The notes beneath the pieces were generated by a model. That model had not been told where the DNA came from. It did no database searches and worked only from the letters and a program-made list of their open reading frames with translations. A DNA stretch of 64,000 nucleotides from Fibrobacterota bacterium (lineage in GTDB: Bacteria; Fibrobacterota; Fibrobacteria; UBA11236). Made by a program: the position numbers and the translations under genes. The stretch is from contig CANKII010000004.1 in the NCBI GenBank assembly GCA_947482115.1, positions 1-64,000 of the forward strand, read 5' to 3'. Positions 28,101 to 55,148 of the stretch are shown here, piece after piece (the first letter of the stretch is position 1; each line of letters starts with the position of its first letter).

Positions 28101-28146
28101 GTCCCCCTTCCCCTCAAAAAGGGGAAGGGGGTTGGGGGTTAGGGTG
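28101..28146. repeat. Palindromic repeat overlapping the clpC stop
   Basis: CCCCCTTCCCC-TCAAAAA-GGGGAAGGGGG (28103-28131) plus the GGTTGGGGGTTAGGGTG flank belongs to the same family as the elements at 11991 and 32760-32881, here in reverse orientation. Its end supplies the CCC TAA last codon and stop of clpC. Confidence 0.85.
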
Positions 28147-30628
28147 TTGTTGCCGCGACTTCGCTCTCCGGCTCCTTCTTGGCATCCTTGGCCGAGGAGG
28201 TGAAGCTCAAGGCATCTCCCTTTTTGGAGATTTTCAACAGGGAATTATCCGTGATCTTTCCCCGCAGAATTTCATCCGCCAAGGGATCTTCCAGCAACTT
28301 CTGGATGGCACGGCGCAAAGGCCGCGCTCCCAGTTGCGAGTCGAAACCCTTCTCGATGATGAACTCACGAACGGAGTCGGAGATCTGCATCTTGACTTCG
28401 CGCGATGCCAGGCGGGTTTCCACCTCGGCGATGAGCAGATCCACAATGCGACCCATGTCCTTGCGTTCGAGCGGACGGAAGACCACGATGTCATCCAGAC
28501 GGTTGATGAATTCCGGATTGAAGGTCTTCTTGACCTCATCGCGAACCATGCGTTCAATGCGTTCAAACTCCGTCTCGGAATCGGCATGGCCAAAGCCCAG
28601 ACCCACACCCTTCTTGATGTCCTTTGCGCCCAGATTGCTGGTCATGATGATGATGGTGTTCTTGAAATTCACCTTGCGACCATAGCTGTCCGTAAGCTGC
28701 CCGTCATCGAGGATTTGCAACAGGATGTTAAACACATCCGGATGAGCCTTTTCGATTTCGTCGAGCAGGATCACGGCATAAGGCTTCTTGCGAACCTTCT
28801 CGGTAAGCTGGCCGCCTTCTTCATATCCCACATATCCCGGAGGCGCACCGACGAGACGCGACACCGCGAACTTCTCCATGTACTCCGACATGTCGATGCG
28901 AATCATGGCATCGTCGGACTCGAACAGGAAATTGGCCAAAGCTTTCACCAGCTCCGTTTTGCCCACACCAGTGGGGCCGAGGAACATGAAGCTGCCCATG
29001 GGACGCTTGGTCGAATGCACACCCGAACGCGAACGGCGGATGGCTTTGGCGATCACTTCGATGGCCTTTTCCTGACCCACCACACGCTGGGTAAGCTCTT
29101 TTTCCATATTCAACAGGCGTTCCGTTTCCGGACCTGCCATCTTGGTCAAGGGTACTCCGGTCATTTTCGCCACAACTTCGCGAATGGACTCTTCGTCCAC
29201 AATCAGCAATTCCTCACGCTTTTGATCGCGCCATTTCTTGCGCATCTCATCAAGTTCGGACTTGAGCCTTTCCTGGGAGTCGCGCAGGCTGGCGGCGGTT
29301 TCATAATCCTGATTCTCAACCGAGGATTCTTTTTCCTTCACCACGGCTTCGAGTTCCTGTTCCTTGGTCCGCAATTCGGGCGGAATGGAAAGGCTGGCCA
29401 GACGCACGCGGGCTCCGGCTTCGTCGATCACGTCGATGGCTTTGTCCGGCATGAAGCGATCGTTGAGATAGCGATCGGAAAGCTGGACGGCGGCGGAAAG
29501 CGCAGCATCGGTATAGGTCACCTTGTGATGCACCTCGTACTTGGGACGTAATCCCTTGATGATTTGCAGGGTTTCAGCCATGTTGGGCGGATCGACCAGA
29601 ATGGTCTGGAAGCGGCGCTCCAAGGCTCCGTCTTTCTCAATGTACTTGCGGTATTCGTCCAAAGTCGTGGCGCCGATGCACTGGAACTCTCCGCGCGACA
29701 GCGACGGCTTGAAGATGTTGCTGGCGTCCAGAGAACCCTCGGAACCACCCGCGCCCACGATGGTGTGCAACTCGTCGATGAAGATGATGACATTCTCGTT
29801 TTTCTGCAATTCGGTCATCAACGACTTGAGACGCTCTTCGAACTGGCCGCGATATTTGGTCCCCGCCACAATGCTGCCCATGTCGAGCGTCACCACGCGT
29901 TTGTTCTCCAGCACTTCGGGAATGTTGCGCTCCACGATTTTCTGCGCAAGCCCTTCCACGATGGCGGTTTTACCCACCCCCGGTTCACCGATGAGCACGG
30001 GATTGTTTTTCTTGCGACGGCTCAGAATCTGGATGACGCGCTCGATTTCCTGCGAACGTCCAATGATGGGATCGAGTTGACCCTGACGTGCGAGCTCGGT
30101 GAGGTCACGACCAAAATGATCGAGGAAAGGTGTTTTCGATTTTTTGCGGGATGCGGTAAAGTCGGAATTGGAATTGGAATTGGATTCTCCGCCTCGCAAG
30201 ACGCGTTCGATCTCTTCCTTGACGCGATCGTATTCCACGCCGATGTTGGCCAAGGCCGTGGCCGCAGCGCTTTCATGGTCTTTCATCAAGGCGAGGAGCA
30301 AATGCTCGGTGCCGATGTATTTGTGGCTCATGGCGCGCGCTTCCTGCGCGGCGATTTCCAGAACTTTTTTGGCGCGAGGCGTGAACGGGATCATCTGCCC
30401 AATGGTCATCATCCCACCGGAGGAGGAAATGGATTTCTCGATGTTGCGGGCCAAATCGTCCAGGTCAATGCTCAGGTTCTTAAGCACCGCCACGGCCACG
30501 CCGTCGCCTTCACGGATGAGGCCGAGCAACAGGTGCTCGGTACCCACATAGTCATTGCCCAATCTCACCGACTCCTCGCGGGCGAGCTGCATGACCTTTT
30601 TAACCCTGTCTGTAAACATTCCGTTCAT
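28139..30628 (-). CDS. clpC: Clp protease ATPase ClpC
   Basis: 829 residues. The double ClpN repeat (about 1-145; VGTEHLLLGLIREGDGV and IGTEHLLLALMKDHESA) is followed by AAA-1 with GEPGVGKTA and VIIFIDELHTIVGAG. The middle domain holds a UVR motif (ENQDYETAASLRDSQERLKS), which marks ClpC rather than ClpA. AAA-2 has GPTGVGKTE and VILLDEIEKAH and completes the C-terminus. The start ATG has GAGGAAAG in front. ClpC unfolds substrates for ClpP; in Firmicutes McsA and McsB feed it phosphoarginine-tagged proteins, and here both lie directly upstream. No CtsR-like regulator is seen. The final codons are supplied by a dispersed repeat. Confidence 0.95.
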   Translation of the reverse strand: MNGMFTDRVKKVMQLAREESVRLGNDYVGTEHLLLGLIREGDGVAVAVLKNLSIDLDDLARNIEKSISSSGGMMTIGQMIPFTPRAKKVLEIAAQEARAMSHKYIGTEHLLLALMKDHESAAATALANIGVEYDRVKEEIERVLRGGESNSNSNSDFTASRKKSKTPFLDHFGRDLTELARQGQLDPIIGRSQEIERVIQILSRRKKNNPVLIGEPGVGKTAIVEGLAQKIVERNIPEVLENKRVVTLDMGSIVAGTKYRGQFEERLKSLMTELQKNENVIIFIDELHTIVGAGGSEGSLDASNIFKPSLSRGEFQCIGATTLDEYRKYIEKDGALERRFQTILVDPPNMAETLQIIKGLRPKYEVHHKVTYTDAALSAAVQLSDRYLNDRFMPDKAIDVIDEAGARVRLASLSIPPELRTKEQELEAVVKEKESSVENQDYETAASLRDSQERLKSELDEMRKKWRDQKREELLIVDEESIREVVAKMTGVPLTKMAGPETERLLNMEKELTQRVVGQEKAIEVIAKAIRRSRSGVHSTKRPMGSFMFLGPTGVGKTELVKALANFLFESDDAMIRIDMSEYMEKFAVSRLVGAPPGYVGYEEGGQLTEKVRKKPYAVILLDEIEKAHPDVFNILLQILDDGQLTDSYGRKVNFKNTIIIMTSNLGAKDIKKGVGLGFGHADSETEFERIERMVRDEVKKTFNPEFINRLDDIVVFRPLERKDMGRIVDLLIAEVETRLASREVKMQISDSVREFIIEKGFDSQLGARPLRRAIQKLLEDPLADEILRGKITDNSLLKISKKGDALSFTSSAKDAKKEPESEVAATTP

Positions 30629-30731: not shown

Positions 30732-31748
30732 CTAAAACGGGTCGGTGCTCCACATTGAAGCGCTTGGAAGTACTTGCCTGTGAAAGGGTTGAGCGGTGAT
30801 TCGGAGTTTTTCCAGCTTCGCCAAAAGCGATGCGGGGAAATGCCCGAGATAAACTCCCACACGGGTGAAAGAGCTGAATTCCAAAAATTGGGCGTAATCC
30901 AGCGGCTTTTCCTGTTGCAGCAACTGAAAAGATTGGAAGATGCGATCTTCGAGCCGGTGTTTGTCTTTCTCCAGCCATTTTTCCAAAGCCTCGGTTTCAG
31001 TGACGAGAACGGACTTGACCTGTTCCGAAATTCGCTGATACCAGACTTCCTCAGGAAATTTCATGCCACCGCGAGAGAGGACCCGGAAAAAGCCCGCCTC
31101 GGCCGCACCGGGATCCCGTAACGCAAGAGGTTGCAACTCCAAACCCAGCGCATTCATGGCCTGTTGCGCAGACTGAATACGGCGTGAAGCCACCAAGGCC
31201 GGAAGATGAACAGCCCATTCCAACTGCAAACCCGATCCCGCAAAGGTGGGATTGGAAGTCAGAAATCCATAGCCGGAGGAATGACAGAAAGGTCCGTTGA
31301 TTTCCATCAGTCCGGGCGTTACGGGAATATCCACCGTTTCGGGAAAACCGGGTCTCACCTTGATCTGGGTCCAATGTTCCACTTCCCCAACCAAAGCATG
31401 TTCGGCTGGATCGGAACTCAGGAACAACAATTTGAAATCGCGCTTTCCCGGAAACGTAATGGGACGCTCCGGCAACCATTGGCGTTCGCGAAAAAATCCA
31501 ATGGCTTCGGGACTTTGATTCGCCAACACTAAGGGTTTGGAAAAACCGGTTGTACCCGCAAAGGTACGTGCCTGTGTCACCACTTCGGAACACATTTCCG
31601 GCGGACAGGAAACCCAAAAAGGAAAACCGGTGAAGTTGCGGCGGCGGATCGAACGGGTAAAAAGCACACGCGCCTGAAGACTGGAAGCTTCAGGAACATC
31701 GGCCGAAACCCAAGCGGGCAGCAGCGATGCCCATTCCAACAGATTCAT
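30732..31748 (-). CDS. mcsB: McsB-like arginine-kinase homologue with altered active site
   Basis: 338 residues of the ATP:guanido phosphotransferase fold. Blocks that align to McsB are RVLFTRSIRRRNFTGFPF (SSRIRLARN region), GEVEHWTQIKVRPGF (NEEDHIRIQ region), GYGFLTSNPTFAGSGL followed by AVHLPALVASRRI, and RIFQSFQLL near the C-terminus. Several catalytic positions differ: NEED becomes GEVE, the Cys of TSCPTN becomes Asn, LRAS becomes LQLE and the ISNQ ATP site becomes LSRG. McsB normally phosphorylates arginines to mark proteins for ClpCP. This copy could be a pseudokinase or adaptor. Its start overlaps mcsA (ATGA), and clpC follows after about 100 bases. Confidence 0.8.
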   Translation of the reverse strand: MNLLEWASLLPAWVSADVPEASSLQARVLFTRSIRRRNFTGFPFWVSCPPEMCSEVVTQARTFAGTTGFSKPLVLANQSPEAIGFFRERQWLPERPITFPGKRDFKLLFLSSDPAEHALVGEVEHWTQIKVRPGFPETVDIPVTPGLMEINGPFCHSSGYGFLTSNPTFAGSGLQLEWAVHLPALVASRRIQSAQQAMNALGLELQPLALRDPGAAEAGFFRVLSRGGMKFPEEVWYQRISEQVKSVLVTETEALEKWLEKDKHRLEDRIFQSFQLLQQEKPLDYAQFLEFSSFTRVGVYLGHFPASLLAKLEKLRITAQPFHRQVLPSASMWSTDPF

Positions 31749-32068
31749 GGTTTCGCTTTCAATGCTTTAATCCGGCGATGCAATCCGGCGGCTTCTTCAT
31801 AGCGCTCATTGCGCAACGCATCGGAAAGCGTTTCTTCCAACCCCGCCAAATCCTCCAACGCTTCCGTATTGCTTTGGGCATTCGGAGACATCTCGCTTAT
31901 GGACGGCATGACATGCTGATACAGATTGGGATGCATTTGTATGAGATCCGCCCACAGGGTTTCGCCAAAGCAGGAATAGCATTGCGGACAACCCAGCAAA
32001 CCTCGCGTGACAAATTCTGCATAAGTAAAACCGCATTGGGTGCAAACCTGCATCTCAGTATGGATCAC
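31745..32068 (-). CDS. mcsA: McsA-like zinc-finger activator
   Basis: 107 residues, shorter than Bacillus McsA. It has two CxxC pairs (CTQC at 9-12 and CPQC at 27-30) and a C-terminal UVR motif (LEETLSDALRNERYEEAAGL). In Firmicutes McsA binds and activates McsB and links it to ClpC. Both ends overlap neighbours: its ATG overlaps the lolD stop and its stop overlaps the mcsB ATG. The whole lolE-lolD-mcsA-mcsB-clpC run is therefore one tightly packed operon linking lipoprotein export and protein quality control. Confidence 0.85.
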   Translation of the reverse strand: MIHTEMQVCTQCGFTYAEFVTRGLLGCPQCYSCFGETLWADLIQMHPNLYQHVMPSISEMSPNAQSNTEALEDLAGLEETLSDALRNERYEEAAGLHRRIKALKAKP

Positions 32069-32754
32069 GCTGCGATCTCCGCATCCACAGCCGGATGCAA
32101 GGCACCGTCGCGCATCACGAGTCGGCGCGTGGCTTTGCGGGCCAGCGCAACATCATGTGTCACGACCAACACTGCAACTCCGAGGTCGCGATTCAAATCG
32201 GCGAGGACATTGTGCAAATGATCGGAGTTGTGCGCATCGAGATTCCCGGAGGGTTCATCGCATAACAACGCCTTGGGTTCATTCACCAGCGCACGCGCCA
32301 CCGCCGCGCGCTGGCGTTCACCACCGCTGAGCTGAGAAGGAAGATGTTCCAATCGTTGTTCAAGTCCCACCTGCGTCAACAACATTCGTGCGCGTTCGAT
32401 TCCCTCCTTGCGGAGGTTGCCGTTGATGCGCAGTGGCAGCATGGCGTTTTCCAACACGGTGAGATCGGGAAGCAAATGATGGAACTGGAATACGAATCCG
32501 ATGTCCTGATTGCGAATGGCGGATAGGCGTGCGTCGGACAACGAACTTACCGCTTCGCCGCGAAAGAGAACCGTTCCCTCCGAAGGCCGTTCCAGAAATC
32601 CGAGAATGTGCAACAGGGTACTCTTCCCCACACCGGACGCACCGGTGATGGAAACAAAATCTCCGGGCATGAGATCGAAATCCAGATTCCGAAACAACTC
32701 AATGCGGTTGCCCGTGTCCTCAAAAGCTTTGGCCACGCCACGCAAGCTAAGCAT
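32065..32754 (-). CDS. lolD: Lipoprotein-releasing ATPase LolD
   Basis: 229 residues from ATG 32754; upstream in-frame codons only translate a repeat element. Walker A is GASGVGKST, the Q-loop is DIGFVFQFHHLLPDLT with the MacB/LolD-type wording, the signature is LSGGERQRAAVARAL and Walker B is LLCDEPSGNLD. The switch His is in VVTHD. LolD powers the inner-membrane LolE-type partner, encoded just upstream, to release lipoproteins to LolA. Its ribosome site (GGGGAAGGGG, 8 or so bases before ATG) comes from a palindromic repeat inserted between lolE and lolD. Confidence 0.9.
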   Translation of the reverse strand: MLSLRGVAKAFEDTGNRIELFRNLDFDLMPGDFVSITGASGVGKSTLLHILGFLERPSEGTVLFRGEAVSSLSDARLSAIRNQDIGFVFQFHHLLPDLTVLENAMLPLRINGNLRKEGIERARMLLTQVGLEQRLEHLPSQLSGGERQRAAVARALVNEPKALLCDEPSGNLDAHNSDHLHNVLADLNRDLGVAVLVVTHDVALARKATRRLVMRDGALHPAVDAEIAA

Positions 32755-32759
32755 CAAAG

Positions 32760-32881
32760 CACCCCTTCCCCGACCCTTCCCCTTTTTGAGGGGAAGGGAG
32801 AACACATTAAGGGTTCTTTGTTAAAGACCCATGTGAAACTTCCTCCCCTCAAAAAGGGGAGGAAGCAAATGGTGGGGTGGT
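32760..32881. repeat. Two inverted copies of the C/G-rich palindromic repeat
   Basis: Copy 1 has CCCTTCCCC-TTTTTGA-GGGGAAGGG (32774-32798) and copy 2 has CTTCCTCCCC-TCAAAAA-GGGGAGGAAG (32839-32865) ending GGTGGGGTGG. They lie in opposite orientation and fill the whole lolE-lolD spacer, running from the lolE stop to just before the lolD ribosome site. Confidence 0.85.
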
Positions 32882-34128
32882 TACTCATGTCGTATTGCCT
32901 CCACCGGATCTTGGCGTGCGGCTTTGAAGGCGGGCAATAGCGTTGCGATGCCGCACAGGAAATTGGTGACGAAGAGAACTTCGACCACATCCATCCAATG
33001 AAGATCCACCGGAAGCACAGTGACGAAATACACGTCGCCTGGAAGCTGAATCAATCCGAAATGTTTCTGCAACCAATAACTCAACAACCCTAATGCTGTT
33101 CCCACAAGTGAACCGGTGAGACCGATCAGCATTCCTTCGAAAACGAAAATTCGCAAAATTGCGCGGCGTGTCGCGCCCATGGCGCGCAAAATTCCGATCT
33201 CGCGAGTCTTGTCGTTCACCGCCATCACCAGAGAAGAAATAATGTTGAAGGCCGCGATGAGGATGATGATGCCCAGCGCCAGCGACACCAGCACCTTTTC
33301 ATAATTCATCCACTTGATGAGCGTGTAATTCTTCGCCTGCCAATCGACTGCACGATACGGAAAACCCAGATGCTCTTCCAACGCATCGGCGATACGCGGG
33401 CTTTGGTATGGGTCCGTGACACGGGCCTGAATTCCCGTGACCTGATTGGGAAGGTCGAACAGCTTTTGCGCGGCAGCAATGGAAATATATGCCATCGACT
33501 CGTCGTATTGATACATGCCCGATTCAAAAATCCCTGCGACGATGAAAGGTTGCACGCGCGGCGCGAAGGTTCCGGACATCAAAGTGGCTTTGGAAAAATC
33601 CGCGAGGAACACCTTGTCGCCGACAAAAGCAGCGAGGCGATCCGCGAGGGCATAGCCCATCAGAATGGATGGATACGATCGACCCGTGGTACTGTCCATC
33701 ATCGAATCCAGATTATATACTCCGCGTTTCACTGTTTCCGGAATTCCGATCACGCCACGCGACAACGCAGGATCGATTCCGTACACCAGAATGCCGTCCT
33801 GATTTTTCTGATGGGCGATGACCGTTTTCGCCATCACAAACGGCGCGGCGCTGACCACACCCGGTTCGCGTAAAACCATTTGCCGCAAAGAATCATATCC
33901 CTCGAAGGGTGTGAACTGATGCCGCGTGATTTCGATATGGGCGTCCTTACCCATAAGCTGCCGCTTGACCTCGCCCTCGAATCCGTTGATGGCGGAGAGC
34001 ACGAAAATCAGCAGCCACGAACCAAGCATGACGCCGAGGGCGGAAAACAGGGCGATCACGCCGGAGGTGACGCTGCGGCGTTGGGCCCAGAAGTACTTGC
34101 GGGCGAGGAACCATTCGAAGGAAGTCAT
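32881..34128 (-). CDS. lolE: Lipoprotein-releasing permease LolE/LolC-type
   Basis: 415 residues from ATG 34128 (MTSFEWFLARKYFWAQRRSV). There is one N-terminal membrane segment (SGVIALFSALGVMLGSWLLI), a large periplasmic MacB-like domain (about 55-270) and three C-terminal segments. LALGIIILIAAFNIISSLVM and KTREIGILRAMGATRRAIL are the FtsX/LolC coupling-helix signature. The C-terminal LLPAFKAARQDPVEAIRHE is complete. A single permease gene suggests a homodimeric LolF-type exporter working with the adjacent LolD. It is the first gene of the operon reading into mcsA, mcsB and clpC, and is divergent from the AT-rich islet. Confidence 0.9.
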   Translation of the reverse strand: MTSFEWFLARKYFWAQRRSVTSGVIALFSALGVMLGSWLLIFVLSAINGFEGEVKRQLMGKDAHIEITRHQFTPFEGYDSLRQMVLREPGVVSAAPFVMAKTVIAHQKNQDGILVYGIDPALSRGVIGIPETVKRGVYNLDSMMDSTTGRSYPSILMGYALADRLAAFVGDKVFLADFSKATLMSGTFAPRVQPFIVAGIFESGMYQYDESMAYISIAAAQKLFDLPNQVTGIQARVTDPYQSPRIADALEEHLGFPYRAVDWQAKNYTLIKWMNYEKVLVSLALGIIILIAAFNIISSLVMAVNDKTREIGILRAMGATRRAILRIFVFEGMLIGLTGSLVGTALGLLSYWLQKHFGLIQLPGDVYFVTVLPVDLHWMDVVEVLFVTNFLCGIATLLPAFKAARQDPVEAIRHE

Positions 34129-34297
34129 GCGGAAGATAAACCTAAATGGCAAAGCCTTTGCTCACAAGCCCACTCTAATTGAGCCAAGCAGTCATTTTAA
34201 GCAAAGGGCTATCAAAAACACTCAAATTGAAATGACGCAACTATGCCTTCAATCACTGATAATTCTCTATTATTGAAGAAAACTCGAGGGACCTACT

Positions 34298-35434
34298 ATG
34301 AAGATTTTGGAATATCAATTCAAGGAAGGGACTGAAGCTGGTTGGGAATTCGATAAAATTCAAGCTTCAGATATCAATGTTTTAGTCGGGCAAACGGCGA
34401 CAGGAAAAACTCGATTTCTAAATACCATTTTCAACGCTGGCCTTGTAGCTGCAAGAGACACGAAATTAACCAGTGTTGGAACTTGGGATATCAAATTTAA
34501 TCATAATGATGCAGACTACTTCTGGCACGTTCAATCTGAAAAAACATCTCCTACTGAGGTTAGCATTGTAAACGAAGTTTTAAAAAAAACAGACGGAGAT
34601 AAAGAAGAAGAGCTGATTAAAAGAGACTTGGCAGGATTTTATTTTAAGGGTAGCCCGATACCCAAACTTTCACAAAACCATTCTGCGATACAACTTTTAA
34701 AAGAAGAAGAAACAATAAAACCGATTTTTGAGGGTTTCGGAAGAATTGCGAAAAGGTATTTCTCCGGGGACGACCTCAAGAAACAAGCTAGAGATGAAAT
34801 CATCGACACCAAAACTAAGGAGCTTCTAGACAAGGCGAAGAACAAAAAAACTCTTTTGTTTCGGTTTGCGATCGGCAACAAGCTTAACCTACTACAAGAA
34901 TACTATCCGGAAAATTTTAAAAGGGTTTGCGACGCCTTCAAAAACGTTTTCCCGTTTGTTGAAAGTTGCGCAATAACAACCAAAGATCGTACTGCGGAAA
35001 CTTTAAATGTTATGGCAGATTTAAAGATTAAGATATTCGCAGTTAAAGAAAAAGGTGGAAAGGAATGGATATCATACGATCAGTTATCGTCCGGCATGCA
35101 AAAGGTGATCCTATTCCTAGCTGATATTGAAACGCTGCCAGCTGGATCGATTTACCTAATTGACGAATACGAAAACTCTCTCGGCGTCAATGCTATTGAT
35201 TTTTTGCCTGATTACATAGCAACGGTCAACTATGACATTCAGTTCTTTATTACGAGCCACCACCCATACATCATCAATAATTTTGAGCCGAAAGATTGGT
35301 TTATTTTTCACAGAAAAGGGAAAAAGGTTAGCATCAAATATGGTGCCGAGAACGCTAAGAAATTCAGCAAATCAAAACAAGAAGCGTTTACGCAACTCCT
35401 CAACGATCCGTTTTATGCTGAAGGTATTGAATGA
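34298..35434 (+). CDS. ABC/AAA-type ATPase of a two-gene defence-like islet
   Basis: 378 residues. Walker A is GQTATGKT at 31-38, the ABC-like signature LSSGMQ is at 263-268, Walker B IYLIDE at 285-290 and the switch His in ITSHHPYII at 318-326. This is the AAA_15/AAA_21 OLD-like layout, without a TOPRIM domain in the same chain. The central part (70-250) is charged and helical with no recognised domain. Its TGA overlaps the ATG of the next gene. Both genes are strikingly AT-rich with Lys/Asn/Ile codons unlike the GC-richer neighbours, which suggests recent transfer. The layout recalls PARIS (AriA/AriB), RloA/RloB and OLD-type anti-phage systems; the exact family is unclear. A GAGGGA ribosome site precedes the ATG. 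Confidence 0.8.
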   Translation: MKILEYQFKEGTEAGWEFDKIQASDINVLVGQTATGKTRFLNTIFNAGLVAARDTKLTSVGTWDIKFNHNDADYFWHVQSEKTSPTEVSIVNEVLKKTDGDKEEELIKRDLAGFYFKGSPIPKLSQNHSAIQLLKEEETIKPIFEGFGRIAKRYFSGDDLKKQARDEIIDTKTKELLDKAKNKKTLLFRFAIGNKLNLLQEYYPENFKRVCDAFKNVFPFVESCAITTKDRTAETLNVMADLKIKIFAVKEKGGKEWISYDQLSSGMQKVILFLADIETLPAGSIYLIDEYENSLGVNAIDFLPDYIATVNYDIQFFITSHHPYIINNFEPKDWFIFHRKGKKVSIKYGAENAKKFSKSKQEAFTQLLNDPFYAEGIE

Positions 35435-36111
35435 GATGGTATGTGGTCGTAGAGGGACTGAAAACTGAGAAGGCGATATACGACTCCTGGATAAAGCATT
35501 TGAACCCAGCAATGCAGAATTGCGGCACCTATAATGCAGTCCAGGATAACTCATATTTCATTGTGGCCGGTTATGGTTATCCAAATTATTTGCAGGTAAT
35601 AAAATCAGCTATTGATGATATCAATGCCAACAAAGATATTGACGAACTTGTTATTGGTGTCGATTCAGAAAATATGGAACATGCCGAAAAAAATAAAGAG
35701 ATCCAAGATGTGGTTGACGCAAACCCTTGTCATGCTACGGTGCACATTATTGTGCAACATTTCTGCATTGAAACTTGGCTACTAGGGAACAAGAAAGTAA
35801 TTCCAAGATCGCCTCAGAATAAAAAGCTAAAGGAATACAAAAAGCTTTGGGATGTCGTCCAAAAAGATCCAGAAGGCCTCCCACCTAACGTAAGTGAGGG
35901 GTTAAACAGAGCTCAATTTGCCTTAAAATATTTAAGAACTGCTTTAGTAGAAAAAGGACAATCCTACTCGAAAAATTCACCGGGGATTTCTCTGGATTTG
36001 ACCTACCTAGATCAGCTTAAAAGAAGAGTTTCCGAAACAACCCACATTCCAAGTTTTAAGAAATTCCTTGACGTTTTTGAAGCCAAAAATTCTCCGGCCA
36101 TCTCAAACTAA
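35431..36111 (+). CDS. TOPRIM/RloB-like partner protein
   Basis: 226 residues, overlapping the ATPase gene (ATGA). The first strand and turn WYVVVEGLKTEKAIYDSWI resemble the TOPRIM start, with the catalytic-type Glu at 8. ELVIGVDSEN (D78, E80) fits the second acidic strand of a TOPRIM nuclease. QHFCIETWLLGNKK (E114) resembles the NPCFExWLL motif of RloB-like proteins. If it is a nuclease it would act on DNA or RNA when released or activated by the ATPase, as AriB does in PARIS. No metal site is proven and the family is not certain. It ends 3 bases before the next, GC-rich gene. Confidence 0.65.
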   Translation: MRWYVVVEGLKTEKAIYDSWIKHLNPAMQNCGTYNAVQDNSYFIVAGYGYPNYLQVIKSAIDDINANKDIDELVIGVDSENMEHAEKNKEIQDVVDANPCHATVHIIVQHFCIETWLLGNKKVIPRSPQNKKLKEYKKLWDVVQKDPEGLPPNVSEGLNRAQFALKYLRTALVEKGQSYSKNSPGISLDLTYLDQLKRRVSETTHIPSFKKFLDVFEAKNSPAISN

Positions 36112-49320: not shown

Positions 49321-51252
49321 TCAAAACGCCTGCGCCAAATCGATCAACCATGCATCCGGCCAGTTGCTTCCACCCGGCCGACCCCATGCCAAATCCAGCC
49401 GCAGATTGAAAATGCCCAGCAGCGGATAGCGCAAGCCTCCACCATAGGCGATGCCCCTTCCGTAACCGGTGGTGAAAAAGGAGCGGGTGAACGAGAATTG
49501 TTCCCCTCCCAGAATGTTCCAGACCTTTCCGTAGTCCACGAAGGGAACGACTCCCAGCGGTTTCAGATATTTGGTGAAACCGCGCGTATCAATGATGGAG
49601 AAATCAAAAGGAGAAAGACGCAATTCGGCGGAGAATAAAAAGTAAGCGGGTTCGAGCGCCTCCTGTTCCAGCGGACACGAGCCGATGGTGGGCGGCGGAG
49701 CATCGGGGCACAGTTGTGCGAAAGAGTAACTGCGAATGCTGCGTGTCCCACCCAGAAAAAACCGGTTCGCATTTGCCCCGCCCGGAGCGAAGAAGCGTCC
49801 GCCATCCAACCGGAAGGCCACCTTGAACTGATTCCACGGCGGGAGGTAGTAGTAATAAGCGGACTTTGCTTCCAGCCAATTGGCGCGATCATGAAACACA
49901 TCCAAGCCATCGACCGGGCCGCCGTTTCCCCACGTCAGGGCATAACGCGTTCCGCGACTCGGATTGAGATCCTGATCCACAAACGAAAAAAAAGCCGTGT
50001 TCACAAAATTGAAGGAGCCCGCCTTCTCCCGCACCAACGCTCCACTACTTGTATCCACCACGAGTTGACTCAAATAATCCAATTCCACGCTGCTGACTCC
50101 GCGCAGCCAGTATGTAAAAGCACGCGAAAGACTTGCCGTGTTGGAGGTGTGATAATCGCCCGCGAAAATCGGATAGCCCGGCAGCTTGTCCTGAAACCAT
50201 TCCACCAGCATGTTGTCGTCGAAGCGCAGCAACATTCCCCACAGCAAGGGAGAGCCGAACCCGGCCGAAAAACTTTGCTTGTTTTGTGCAAATACGCTTC
50301 CCAGTCGAACCTCCTTCATGCTTCCCGCAATATTGGAATGCATCACCGTTGCGGAAACACCGAAGCCGTACTGGGTTTCATAGAACAGCGATGTGTTCAG
50401 GTGGCCCGGAACCTTTTCCTCCACGTCCAGTATCATGGCGTTGCCGGACGCGGCGCTGTCCTCCAGCCTCACAGAATTGTAAAGTCCGGTGGACTGCAGC
50501 TTTTCGATCACCTTGTCGTTTTGATCGATGCGCACGGTATCGCCCTGATGATAGGGAATCAGGGACCGCAGCAGCGCTTCCTGGGAGAGCCCCTCCAAAG
50601 AATCTGCGGGTGGCGCGCGGCGGATATTCAACAACAACGTGTCGAAAACAACGGCATGGCCGCGCTTGACACGGTAATTCACATCCACGGCATAAAGGGA
50701 ATCTTTCAGGATGGTTTCCGGAGTCACACTGGCGCGGACAAAGCCGGAGTTTCCAAAAAAGCGGGTGATCAGCCTTTGATCAAGGGAAAGATCTTCTTCG
50801 ACATAGGGCTTGTCTTCCTGTGCATGCAATTTTTCCATGGAAGAATTTACCGCATTCAAATTCGTATCCGAATTCTCTTCGATCACCAATCTGATTTTTC
50901 CGAAGCGGTATCGCTTTCCCTCCGAAACATGCAACTGGACCTGCCAGGATTTTTTGGCGTCTTTCACGGCAATGACTTGGAATGCCAACTTGATCTGGAG
51001 AAATCCTGACTGGCGGTAAAAGGTTTCAACGGAATAGGAGGCGTCCTCAGCCCAGGCCTTGACCGAATTTTCTGAAAGTTTCTCCGGCATGTCGGGAAGA
51101 TTTTCCAACAACTCTCGCGAATGGAAGGAGGAGTCTCCATCGATTTTCACAGCCAAATTATCAGCCCAAACCCGTCCGAAAAAAACGATCAGAACCAGGG
51201 GTAGCCAGAGGTAAAGAATTCTTTTTTCGCGACAGGGCAGCAGGAAGTTCAT
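49321..51252 (-). CDS. tamA: TamA-like Omp85 protein
   Basis: 643 residues. A hydrophobic signal (RILYLWLPLVLIVFFGRVWA) is followed by three POTRA-like domains (about 35-290). A C-terminal Omp85 barrel begins near HLNTSLFYETQYGFGVSATV and contains GGTRSIRSYSF, the conserved lid-loop motif (GxRxxRGY type), ending in WLIDLAQAF. The TAA stop of the tamB-like gene and this ATG share one base. With TamB it forms the outer-membrane half of the translocation and assembly module, which helps insert certain outer-membrane proteins and may move phospholipids. Confidence 0.85.
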   Translation of the reverse strand: MNFLLPCREKRILYLWLPLVLIVFFGRVWADNLAVKIDGDSSFHSRELLENLPDMPEKLSENSVKAWAEDASYSVETFYRQSGFLQIKLAFQVIAVKDAKKSWQVQLHVSEGKRYRFGKIRLVIEENSDTNLNAVNSSMEKLHAQEDKPYVEEDLSLDQRLITRFFGNSGFVRASVTPETILKDSLYAVDVNYRVKRGHAVVFDTLLLNIRRAPPADSLEGLSQEALLRSLIPYHQGDTVRIDQNDKVIEKLQSTGLYNSVRLEDSAASGNAMILDVEEKVPGHLNTSLFYETQYGFGVSATVMHSNIAGSMKEVRLGSVFAQNKQSFSAGFGSPLLWGMLLRFDDNMLVEWFQDKLPGYPIFAGDYHTSNTASLSRAFTYWLRGVSSVELDYLSQLVVDTSSGALVREKAGSFNFVNTAFFSFVDQDLNPSRGTRYALTWGNGGPVDGLDVFHDRANWLEAKSAYYYYLPPWNQFKVAFRLDGGRFFAPGGANANRFFLGGTRSIRSYSFAQLCPDAPPPTIGSCPLEQEALEPAYFLFSAELRLSPFDFSIIDTRGFTKYLKPLGVVPFVDYGKVWNILGGEQFSFTRSFFTTGYGRGIAYGGGLRYPLLGIFNLRLDLAWGRPGGSNWPDAWLIDLAQAF

Positions 51253-54200
51253 TAGCGGTTCCCCCTGTTTTTATCGGGAGAGGATTTCGCGGACTTGTTC
51301 CACCAGAATCCCCAGAAATCGTAGCCGTAATTAATGCCTATGGCTTTTTGCACAGGATCTTCCAGCGCGACGGTGCGTTGCACGGGAAGCGTATGCACCG
51401 AGGCCGCGACGGTGACATGGTCTTTAAGCCGGAACTTCCAATCCGGATCGTTTACGTAATTCTCAAAAGGCGGTCGCCACTCAATGGCAAACAAGTTTTC
51501 CCACGGGCTGGAAAGATCCTGCGATTCGGTGTGATAACCGGATTTGATTTTAAGCCGCAGGCGGAGGAACTCCTTGCTGGTCACCTGCAAGCTGAGTGCT
51601 TGTGTGAGGGTATCGTTTCCTGTTCCTGGATTTTTTCCGGCCAACGAACCCAGCCCGGTGATTTCGGTTGCCGCGATCCACGAGTTGGAATGACGTCCCA
51701 CAAAACCGGAAATGCTGTGATTCAAAGTGGGCTCCAGCAGCGAAAGCCCTTTTTGTCCGTAGCCCGAACTTCCGCCATTGGAGAAGGAGGGATCATAGCA
51801 TCCGCGTTGCATGGAATAAAGGATTGCGGCCACGTTCGCACCCGCGCCATAAGCGCCGCCGCAATCGCTGTCGTAGGAAAACTGCAACTGGCTCAAGGGT
51901 CCGTTCAGGCGGGTAATGACGGAACAGGAATCGCGTGCCGCAGAAGAGGCGGAATTGTTGTCGCAATGCGCGGCGAGGTTCTTGCGCGCATCGAGCTGCG
52001 CTTCGCCTTCTTCCAAAGGCGCGTTCAACCATTTCACCTCCAGTTGCCGGATTTGATAGGCTTCGTTCTCAATTCCCAATTCCCCTTTAAGGGAATTCAT
52101 CCGGCCCTGCACCAGAGTGTACGGGTAAACGCCGCGCATGTTGAAATCACCCACCCAGGTCAGCCGCAGAATGTCCGAATCGATGCGGTTGTCGTCCCCG
52201 AGGGTGTGAAGCCTCACGCTCAGTTGAATGGGGTGGACGCGCCCGCTTTTTTTCTTGTTGTGCTGGTTCTGAAAAAGTTCCGTAATGGCCGACAAAGTTT
52301 TCAGCCGGTAGCGAAGCATTGAGTGACTCAACGATCCGGAAAACTCCAAAGAGGGAACGCCCCGGTTGCCGGTGCGAAGCAAAGATGCCGGAGGCAAAGC
52401 ATAGGCAAAACTTACGTCCCTCAAATCACCTTCAGCATGCAAGGGAGGGTCGACATACAAGACGGTGCCTTGAGAAAATCCTCCGTTAACGCGCGTTCCG
52501 CCGGAGTCCATGCGAACTTCAGCGCGCAAATTTTTGAGATCCACCTTGCGATTGTCCGTCCATTGCACGGCGAGTTCACTGCCGGTCAATTGGGCATGAA
52601 GCACCTTGTTTTTCAATCCATATTCCATTGTGCCCTGCAGACCCAATCCGTTTTGATCCTTCAAAATCAGATCGGGGATGTTCAACATCCCGTGGTTCAA
52701 TGTTGGTGTCAGGGAAAAATGCTGGCGTGTTACAGGCGGGATGAGATAATCTCCCTCAAAGGTTCGCGTTGTCAGCGTTGCTCCGGTCATCGCATTTCGG
52801 GAAGGAACCCCGAAATCCACATCCACATGCAAGGTTTGCAGTAGTCCGGAATTTTCCGGGAGGCTTGCGCCGCCCTGAATTTGCAGACGACCGCGAAAGC
52901 CATTGAAGCGCGAAGTCACCGCATCGATTTGAAGATGCAATGAATCCGCGGCCACGGCATCGATGTGGATTTGCTGGCTGTCTTCCAGCGCGTGAGTCAA
53001 TGCGATACGCAGGGAATCCCTCAACAACGGAGTGCTTTCCGATTGCGTCACACCGAGAACGATTAGTTTGTCGCCATTGCCGTCGAGTTGCAATCGCTTC
53101 AAAGTCACATCACCGATTTCTTCGCGTGGCGCAAGGCCGGTGAAGGCCAGCGATCCTTGAAAACCCCCGGAATCCGCATAGATGAGATTTCCCTGCATTC
53201 CTCCGCTCTTGAGAAACGGTTCGGGTCGGAAGATGGATTCGGCCCACGCCAAATCGAATTCCGGAGTTTCCAACGACACCTGTTTATAATCCGGCAGTCG
53301 CAGTTTGTTGAGTTCGTAGAACTGTCGGCCGTTCAGGTTCAGTCGCGAGCGGATGATGATCGAGGACTCCCGGGAATGGAGCATCAGATTTTCCAAATCC
53401 AGGGATCGTGCATTCCAGCGGGCTTGGGTTTCAATGACAAATTGCTGCTTTTGGAATTCCGCCATCGCCGTCGCGTTCCATGCGCCGTTTCGTCGTTTCC
53501 AATTCCATTCGAAACTCCCGTCCACGACCGGCTTTTGGACGGGGATTTTTTCCAGCCCCGCATAAGGCAATTCTCCCGCGTGAAAATGATTCGCAGTGAC
53601 CTGCATTGAATCCCGCACTTGAAAAAATTGTATGCCGCCGTAACGCGGATTCTCCAGGGTGAAATTCACGACCGGAAAAACCTTCGCGGTTTCCACCGTG
53701 CCGAAAAGCGACCACGTATCCTCCTGAGTGTAGAGTTGCGCGGATTTCAATTCATAACCGTGCGGGGAGTAAATATGCTGTGATGTCAGTGAGTCCAGCT
53801 TTGCGCCGTAAGCGGAAAGATGTTGAACGCGGAGGGAGACAGTCACGGTTTTTCCCGATACGATTCCAGCCGCGTCCAATGCCGCAAAAGAAACATTGGT
53901 GTCCACAAAAGCCAGCACCCATCGTTCCGAGGGTGTGACATGAACGGAAAAATTTCCGTTCCAGTTTCCGCGCACCTGCTGCGCCTGTGCCTGCACGATC
54001 GAGTGATCCTCCGTAATCACGCGCATGGAAAGGCCCTGTCCATTCCAATCGGCATGTTCCACATGCGCTCCTGTGACCAACATTTTCCTTCCGGCGCGAA
54101 CACGAAATTTTTCCGCGTAACCCCGGGTGGATGCAGTGAACCGCTGCCACAAGGGAAGCAAAGAATCACTTTCCGCGAGCTGAAGTTTCCGGACATCTCC

Positions 54201-55148
54201 ATTCAAGGCCAACACTTCTCCGGAGCGGCCCTGACTTTTTATTTGCCATTGGCCTACATGGTTGATTCCATCAACGCGAACTTCCATTTTTTGTGAACTC
54301 AAAGCCAAAGGCAGGGAACTGGAAAATCCATCCACCTGACTTTGCAATAATGCGTGTCCTTCAACGGAGTCTCCACGCGTGAGATGAATATCCAAATGAA
54401 CATCGTGGGCGAAGGGAAGATTTTTTTGCTTCAGTCCAAAAGCGGAGGCATAGGGATTGGAATTCTCGACTTGCGCTTGCAAGGAGACGCGCCCACGCCA
54501 AAGATCTTTTTGAGCAAGGCGTGAAATCAAATGAATCTGATCCTTTTCCCGGAGGACATTCAAGTTCAAATCCACCGAATCTGCTTTCGACCAATTCATG
54601 CTGGCGGAAATGGAAGGGCTTAAGTTGTTGGCAAAAGGAGATGTCACTTTTCCGATATCCAAATGGATTTGCGATCCATCCGGATTGTGCGCCTCAATAT
54701 TCCAGACCGAAACCAGGATGCCGGAATCATTTTCCAATTGGACTGCCCGAATATTCAGCGCGGCTTTGACCGGTATTTTGAAAATCGGAAACGCGAAAGA
54801 AGAATCCGGGAGGTTTCGGCGGGGATGGGTTGCGTCCCGGGCGGCGCTAAAGTGAACAAAGGCCGTATCCACCCGCACTTGCGCAAAAGCTGGAAGTCCG
54901 GCATGAATTTCGGTGTTACCCAAACGGGCTTGTAAAACGGGCGAGCGATACCACGCCGAATCAAGGTGGAATTTCAAATCCCATTTCAGTGCCCCACCGT
55001 AAATGCGCAGGGTTCCGTCCACCAGATGAATTTCCTGGCGAAGAACATGATGTTCCAGCCAGAATTTTCCACCGACCATCGACAGGACAAACAAAAGTGC
55101 GATCGCCAGCACTGTCCATCCAAAAAATCGGAGGATTTTAAGGGGCAT
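51252..55148 (-). CDS. tamB: TamB/AsmA-like large envelope protein
   Basis: 1298 residues. An N-terminal signal anchor (FFGWTVLAIALLFVLSMVGG) is followed by a very long series of amphipathic beta strands with no enzyme motif, as in TamB/AsmA bridge proteins that span the periplasm. The last 250 residues (LSQLQFSYDSDCGGAYGAGA, then GINYGYDFWGFWWNKS) take the place of the DUF490 domain and end in a charged tail. It is placed directly before the Omp85 gene, which strongly supports the TamB role. It is divergent from the DUF3494 cluster. Confidence 0.82.
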   Translation of the reverse strand: MPLKILRFFGWTVLAIALLFVLSMVGGKFWLEHHVLRQEIHLVDGTLRIYGGALKWDLKFHLDSAWYRSPVLQARLGNTEIHAGLPAFAQVRVDTAFVHFSAARDATHPRRNLPDSSFAFPIFKIPVKAALNIRAVQLENDSGILVSVWNIEAHNPDGSQIHLDIGKVTSPFANNLSPSISASMNWSKADSVDLNLNVLREKDQIHLISRLAQKDLWRGRVSLQAQVENSNPYASAFGLKQKNLPFAHDVHLDIHLTRGDSVEGHALLQSQVDGFSSSLPLALSSQKMEVRVDGINHVGQWQIKSQGRSGEVLALNGDVRKLQLAESDSLLPLWQRFTASTRGYAEKFRVRAGRKMLVTGAHVEHADWNGQGLSMRVITEDHSIVQAQAQQVRGNWNGNFSVHVTPSERWVLAFVDTNVSFAALDAAGIVSGKTVTVSLRVQHLSAYGAKLDSLTSQHIYSPHGYELKSAQLYTQEDTWSLFGTVETAKVFPVVNFTLENPRYGGIQFFQVRDSMQVTANHFHAGELPYAGLEKIPVQKPVVDGSFEWNWKRRNGAWNATAMAEFQKQQFVIETQARWNARSLDLENLMLHSRESSIIIRSRLNLNGRQFYELNKLRLPDYKQVSLETPEFDLAWAESIFRPEPFLKSGGMQGNLIYADSGGFQGSLAFTGLAPREEIGDVTLKRLQLDGNGDKLIVLGVTQSESTPLLRDSLRIALTHALEDSQQIHIDAVAADSLHLQIDAVTSRFNGFRGRLQIQGGASLPENSGLLQTLHVDVDFGVPSRNAMTGATLTTRTFEGDYLIPPVTRQHFSLTPTLNHGMLNIPDLILKDQNGLGLQGTMEYGLKNKVLHAQLTGSELAVQWTDNRKVDLKNLRAEVRMDSGGTRVNGGFSQGTVLYVDPPLHAEGDLRDVSFAYALPPASLLRTGNRGVPSLEFSGSLSHSMLRYRLKTLSAITELFQNQHNKKKSGRVHPIQLSVRLHTLGDDNRIDSDILRLTWVGDFNMRGVYPYTLVQGRMNSLKGELGIENEAYQIRQLEVKWLNAPLEEGEAQLDARKNLAAHCDNNSASSAARDSCSVITRLNGPLSQLQFSYDSDCGGAYGAGANVAAILYSMQRGCYDPSFSNGGSSGYGQKGLSLLEPTLNHSISGFVGRHSNSWIAATEITGLGSLAGKNPGTGNDTLTQALSLQVTSKEFLRLRLKIKSGYHTESQDLSSPWENLFAIEWRPPFENYVNDPDWKFRLKDHVTVAASVHTLPVQRTVALEDPVQKAIGINYGYDFWGFWWNKSAKSSPDKNRGNR

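Follow-up and report, generated by a model that had tools for sequence, protein, structure and literature searches.

A degenerate McsB in the mcsA-mcsB-clpC gene run of Fibrobacteria, probably a pseudokinase serving ClpC

The mcsA-mcsB-clpC locus

The window analyzed here, i.e., the whole stretch of 64,000 nucleotides from a Fibrobacterota bacterium, contains a tight run of genes in the order lolC-lolD-mcsA-mcsB-clpC (Table 1). The mcsB-like gene lies on the minus strand, which the original prediction had not given; its start shares 4 bp with the mcsA stop, and 103 bp separate it from the clpC gene downstream. The encoded protein consists of a phosphotransferase-like and a dimerization-like domain. 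A frameshift or pseudogene is ruled out by the lack of any stop or frame break in the gene. In a search of the whole genome (2.7 Mb, 15 contigs) with PF00217, this gene was the sole match, which rules out a second, canonical McsB elsewhere. No CIRCE element was found within the window, and a promoter scan gave fewer sites than its shuffles.

The gene order and the McsA partner are those of canonical McsB systems, in which the kinase marks damaged proteins for degradation and so feeds ClpC. The description of the locus as an otherwise intact operon holds for the mcsA-mcsB-clpC order and needs correcting in two details: there is no ctsR, and McsA is short and lacks its first zinc finger.

Two further gene pairs in the window were annotated. 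Beside lolC, an AAA_21/AriA/AbiLi-like ATPase gene is followed by one for a weakly matching RloB-like protein, possibly an RloAB-type defence pair; farther away, a gene for an Omp85/POTRA protein (TamA-like) adjoins one for a TamB protein.

Table 1. Genes and diverged sequence blocks of the locus, with two other gene pairs of the window (residue numbers are those of B. subtilis McsB)
Feature	Position	Strand	Description
clpC	28139..30628	-	829 aa; ORF and profile; GTEH motif in both N-terminal repeats
mcsB-like gene	30732..31748	-	338 aa; ORF, profile and fold; degenerate McsB (very probably a pseudokinase)
ISNQ block	31065..31082	-	VLSRGG in the window protein; alignment
RG..GE lid loop	31098..31133	-	R207 and E212 lost
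GLRAS block (174-178)	31218..31232	-	GLQLE; R176 to Gln
TSCPTN block (165-170)	31242..31259	-	TSNPTF; Cys167 to Asn
NEEDHxR block	31368..31388	-	GEVEHWT; E121 to Val, R125 to Thr
SSRIRLARN block	31635..31661	-	FTRSIRRRN; R29 kept, R31 to Ile, R34 and N35 kept
mcsA-like gene	31745..32068	-	107 aa; one CxxC/CxxC zinc finger and UVR
lolD	32065..32805	-	ORF and profile; overlaps the mcsA start by 4 bp; same gene run
lolC/E-type permease gene	32881..34152	-	ORF and profile; opens the gene run
ATPase and RloB-like pair	34298..36111
Omp85/POTRA and TamB pair	49321..55148	-

A divergent protein with the McsB fold

The window protein is a weak member of the PF00217 profile (36.7 bits, above the cut-off) and falls below every NCBIfam McsB cut-off, with 74.5 bits against 385 for the best model (NF002194) and 56.3 bits against 500 for another one. 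Identity to canonical McsB is about 21%. The AlphaFold2 model built from a 50-row alignment (pLDDT 90.8) has the McsB chain 6TV6_C as its best PDB match in VIA-align (Z 32.6, 321 residues, rmsd 2.9), in line with the expectation that the fold-defining blocks are kept. Because the rows of that alignment were mostly canonical McsBs, the prediction was repeated with nine family members only; the resulting model (pLDDT 84.9) again aligned to McsB (Z 32.1, 324 residues), and Foldseek also returned 6TV6 as the best match. Both McsB domains are spanned by the two VIA alignments, and hhalign connects the nine family members with 20 canonical McsBs at 99.9%. Thus, as far as the models go, the window protein has the McsB fold over its whole length and resembles in this respect the kinases of B. 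subtilis (6TV6), Geobacillus stearothermophilus (6FH1) and Staphylococcus aureus (8GQD).

Loss of catalytic and ATP-site residues

The residues were compared, in B. subtilis (Bsu) numbering, in an alignment of 54 rows, of which 51 are McsBs from the phylum and three are PDB chains; an 88-residue fragment at a contig edge (G061) was excluded, and one sequence (G055) has a truncated C-terminus. The canonical set (n = 36, i.e., 33 proteins of the phylum and the three PDB chains) was defined by family after the scores were known, and one family, f8, was kept outside it because it is degenerate. By homology to arginine kinase, we take R29, R31, R125, R176 and R207 to be the arginines that contact the ATP phosphates, and E121 and E212 to be the catalytic carboxylates. 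The role of the catalytic cysteine, Cys157 of S. aureus (Bsu C167), follows a review (PMC12467219).

The canonical McsBs retain R29, R31, E121, R125, C167, R176, R207 and E212 in 36, 36, 36, 35, 33, 36, 35 and 36 of 36 sequences, respectively, compared with 9, 0, 0, 0, 0, 0, 2 and 0 of 10 in the window's family (hereafter f1). In the window protein, R29 alone remains of the eight. All 10 f1 genomes have lost six of the eight sites, as against losses in 0-3 of the 36 canonical McsBs per site, and judging from these counts the shared loss exceeds chance. The residues still shared with canonical McsB include R34-N35, H123, P168, G172 and H182-L183-P184.

The claim that this is a McsB with altered catalytic motifs is thus borne out by an alignment with many McsBs: none of the 10 f1 proteins keeps E121, C167, E212, R31, R125 or R176. 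The individual replacements that had been read from the sequence, NEED (119-122) to GEVE, TSCPTN to TSNPTF and GLRAS to GLQLE, all reappear in the alignment. The predicted arginine change in the first motif is also seen: R29 persists, R31 has become Ile, and two extra arginines come after it. ISNQ (223-226) has changed as proposed, with the reading as LSRG shifted by one column, ISNQ being aligned with VLSR. Within these blocks, the window protein shares E177, R226 and G227 with every other f1 member.

Relocation of the catalytic residues was considered and rejected, given that four MAFFT modes and the hhalign profile-profile alignment yield the same residues; the MAFFT modes differ only at column 212, which holds Arg or, in one mode, Asp, and never Glu. 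In 9 of the 10 f1 members, an acidic residue lies five columns past the E212 position, and two invariant acids, E122 and E124 in the window protein, flank the lost E121. A replacement in a moving loop is therefore possible, though it would restore neither C167 nor the arginines.

The phosphoarginine-site residues of McsB, R337, D338 and R341 (PMC8370763), are all missing from the window protein, which lacks the C-terminal RDxxRA-like end. The other nine f1 members keep at least Arg341, so that this residue is present in 9 of 10, and R337 is also missing in most canonical McsBs of the phylum. No RAxxxR remnant was found in the other frames past the last aligned residues of the window mcsB, so the missing end looks like a real loss.

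Selection and evolutionary rate

The NG86 dN/dS values for eight pairs of f1 genomes are about 0.15-0.33, which are rough ratios since dS is near or over 1. Differences at second codon positions amount to 0.15-0.36, compared with 0.46-0.62 at third positions, and taken together these values indicate purifying selection on the mcsB-like gene. The ratio of McsB to ClpC distances has a median of 9.19 in f1 (45 pairs, range 4.4-28.6) versus 4.22 for the 10 pairs among five canonical genomes (range 3.9-4.7). By this estimate, the rate of McsB relative to that of ClpC is about double in f1 what it is in canonical families, suggesting that the constraint is relaxed, not gone.

At 29-64% identity to the window copy, 70 of the 333 columns are fixed in at least 9 of the 10 f1 members. 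Canonical McsBs have 85 columns that are fixed at the 90% level or above, a few of these being gap columns; f1 retains the residue in 26 of the 85, among them R34, N35, H123, P168 and H182-L183-P184. In a separate count, f1 has a new fixed residue, differing from the canonical one, at 34 columns, and 14 of these are located within four former active-site blocks that together hold 58 of the 333 columns (hypergeometric p = 5e-4, with blocks chosen after a first inspection of the alignment). The newly fixed residues in these blocks include, in the window protein, E124, T127, E177, R222, R226 and G227.

Distribution and origin of degenerate McsBs in the phylum

We surveyed 167 genomes of the phylum, 52 of which have a McsB match. 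The f1 family includes 10 genomes from two genera of the class Fibrobacteria, and its sister family, f2, is represented by one genome. The McsB scores are 64-97 bits in all 10 f1 genomes, 163 in f2, about 155 in the two genomes of f4, and 200-219 in the five genomes of f8; in the remaining families McsB is canonical and scores 308-421 bits, apart from the fragment G061. All the available f1 genomes carry the same degenerate McsB, i.e., the window protein is no lone mutant.

The f2 protein also lacks E121, C167 and E212. In f4, which belongs to the same class (L056 and L057), these three residues are lost and all five ATP-phosphate arginines are kept, so that it may be an ATP-binding pseudokinase. 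In f8, from the same phylum but outside the class (L058-L062, e.g., L061:4127-5278), all five genomes have replacements at R31, C167, R176 and R207, and four of the five have one at R29, while McsA retains both zinc fingers. Three of the 36 canonical rows, L066 and L072 (f9) and L064 (G042, f7), have Arg in place of Cys167, with the other catalytic residues almost intact.

The clade of f1 and f2 has support of 100/100, and a single clade of f1, f2 and f4 is not rejected (p-AU 0.33). A single origin of all degenerate McsBs was rejected when f8 was added (p-AU 0.018). The catalytic residues have therefore likely been lost two or more times, subject to the reservation that the branches of f4 and f2 are long. 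The f8 proteins are probably a second degenerate group of independent origin. The placement of f4 is unsure because its branch is very long.

No match to mcsB was found in any of the other 113 genomes of the class (f3 and f5), and the only matches to mcsA were of the UVR type, at 21-27 bits, in 17 of these genomes. ClpC was found in 102 of the 113 and in all 68 good-quality genomes of the class. This gene content indicates that Fibrobacteraceae kept ClpC and lost mcsA and mcsB together.

McsA, ClpC and the missing CtsR

The window McsA has a finger of the form CxxC-x14-CxxC. It shares the C-terminal Cys4 finger and the UVR motif with the known McsA activator and differs from it by the absence of the first zinc finger. 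McsA of f1, f2 and f4 has likewise lost the first finger and kept the second finger and a UVR-like end (13 of 13 genomes with McsB), whereas the first finger is present in the canonical families of the phylum. The finger that persists in the window McsA is the McsB-docking one; PMC12467219 describes this second finger as contacting McsB and positioning its catalytic Cys.

Both mcsA and clpC adjoin the mcsB-like gene in 10 of 10 f1 genomes, and mcsB is beside clpC, on the same strand, in all 10 f1 genomes and in the one f2 genome. In neither f4 nor f8 was mcsAB found next to clpC; all 7 genomes checked from these two families encode ClpC elsewhere. ClpC of the window is 87-91% identical to that of the other nine f1 genomes. 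The GTEH residues E32 and E106 of ClpC bind phosphoarginine, according to PMC12583610. These residues are kept in f1 and also in f3 / Fibrobacteraceae without McsB, hence they do not discriminate; they have a second role in the resting state of ClpC.

CtsR (PF05848) was found in 0 of the 167 genomes, which implies that the system is not the CtsR circuit of Bacillus. B. subtilis has genes for McsB (PF00217), ClpC and CtsR; the B. subtilis control genome gave no match for PF00217, NF002194, Clp_N or CtsR and was not counted as support. Among 15 genomes, of which 31 LMWPc loci were inspected (6 of them without a readable loop), a P-loop Thr of the YwlE type was seen in one only, G166. The Thr of the CSGNTCRS P-loop is, we assume, typical of the arginine phosphatase YwlE, and this marker is not discriminating because there are genomes with canonical McsB that lack it. 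The phosphatase in question (L127), a low-molecular-weight enzyme with the CSGNTCRS loop, comes from the genome with the highest-scoring canonical McsB.

A candidate McsB pseudokinase in the service of ClpC

Kinase activity has very probably been lost in the window protein. The proposal that it is non-catalytic is well supported, considering that the protein lacks both carboxylates, the Cys and four of the five arginines at the ATP phosphates, that the losses are consistent within the family, and that the genome encodes no other PF00217 protein; nothing positive was found for the accompanying suggestion of a different chemistry. Because the catalytic residues are lost and yet the gene is under selection beside clpC, the protein is probably a helper, no longer an enzyme. 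An adaptor role at ClpC would be the most likely one; it fits the operon, the docking finger that McsA retains, the McsB fold and the disappearance of mcsA together with mcsB from related genomes. On balance, we favor as probable the reading that a McsB pseudokinase, in complex with McsA, serves ClpC without arginine phosphorylation. Under this scheme, McsB would be unable to phosphorylate arginine, the zinc finger that McsA retains would still dock on it, and the complex would act directly on ClpC, probably at the N-domain, as ordinary McsA/McsB and MecA do, recruiting substrates to ClpC-ClpP or activating it without a phosphoarginine mark.

The main outside support comes from PMC12583610, which reports that the McsA/McsB complex binds to the N-domain of ClpC and that occupying or mutating the phosphoarginine pockets of this domain suffices for ClpC activation. 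The chief obstacle lies in B. subtilis, where, according to PMC5506225, the adaptor function of McsB needs kinase activity and ClpC is stimulated only by the active kinase. Also against this reading are the preserved GTEH phosphoarginine residues of ClpC, the doubled rate of McsB, which also fits relaxed constraint, and the finding of no mcsAB beside clpC in f4 and f8.

Several other explanations have to be weighed. The gene could be a relic in decay, a weakly useful McsA partner on its way out after the kinase function was lost in the ancestor of the class. This would agree with the absence of mcsA and mcsB from all 113 f3 and f5 genomes in which ClpC persists, with the accelerated evolution of McsB relative to ClpC and with the missing C-terminal end of the window copy. 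We nevertheless consider it improbable in view of the open, near full-length gene in every f1 genome, the low dN/dS in the eight pairs, the 70 columns that stay fixed at such divergence and the unbroken adjacency to mcsA and clpC. It is about equally improbable that McsA and McsB form a redox or stress sensor, or a scaffold, for a partner other than ClpC and have simply inherited their operon position. The retained Cys4 finger of McsA and the degenerate McsAB of f4 and f8, not found beside clpC, are consistent with such a role, whereas adjacency to clpC in 11 of 11 f1 and f2 genomes, the presence of ClpC in each of the 7 genomes checked from f4 and f8 and the lack of any other visible partner argue against it.

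An active kinase with a rebuilt active site, in which shifted residues substitute for the lost ones or another group is phosphorylated, is highly improbable. R29 persists in 9 of 10 members, and the invariant E122 and E124 and the acid downstream of the E212 position could be enlisted in its favor, but the six residues missing from all 10 proteins in every alignment, and four of the five arginines whose ATP-phosphate roles follow from arginine kinase, would have to be replaced. Somewhat less unlikely is that the dead active site was rebuilt as a new pocket, i.e., a receptor-type adaptor that would recognize an unmodified degron or a small ligand and pass substrates on to ClpC; this idea is prompted by the clustering of the newly fixed f1 residues in the former active-site blocks. 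If correct, it would mean that the phosphoarginine mark has been replaced altogether.

Relation to known systems and implications

Compared with canonical McsB, the pseudokinase proposed here lacks the carboxylates, the Cys and most ATP arginines, and has no ctsR in its locus. By analogy with adaptors of the MecA type, it might bind and activate ClpC without a covalent mark, although the folds of MecA and McsB are, we presume, unrelated. The bacterial Ser/Thr pseudokinases likewise have kept a kinase fold and lost the catalytic residues; structure comparison assigns McsB to the phosphagen kinase fold, to which that of the Ser/Thr pseudokinases is presumably unrelated. No report of a McsB pseudokinase was found in the literature searched, the coverage of which excludes most subscription papers.

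The phylum presents a graded series, from canonical McsB through at least two kinds of degenerate McsB to genomes that keep ClpC and have neither mcsA nor mcsB. In B. subtilis, it has been hard to tell the kinase role of McsB apart from its adaptor role (PMC5506225). A lineage in which the kinase has been removed, and McsA, McsB and ClpC have been kept together, would be a natural separation of the two roles, and predicts that McsA-McsB can serve ClpC without phosphoarginine.
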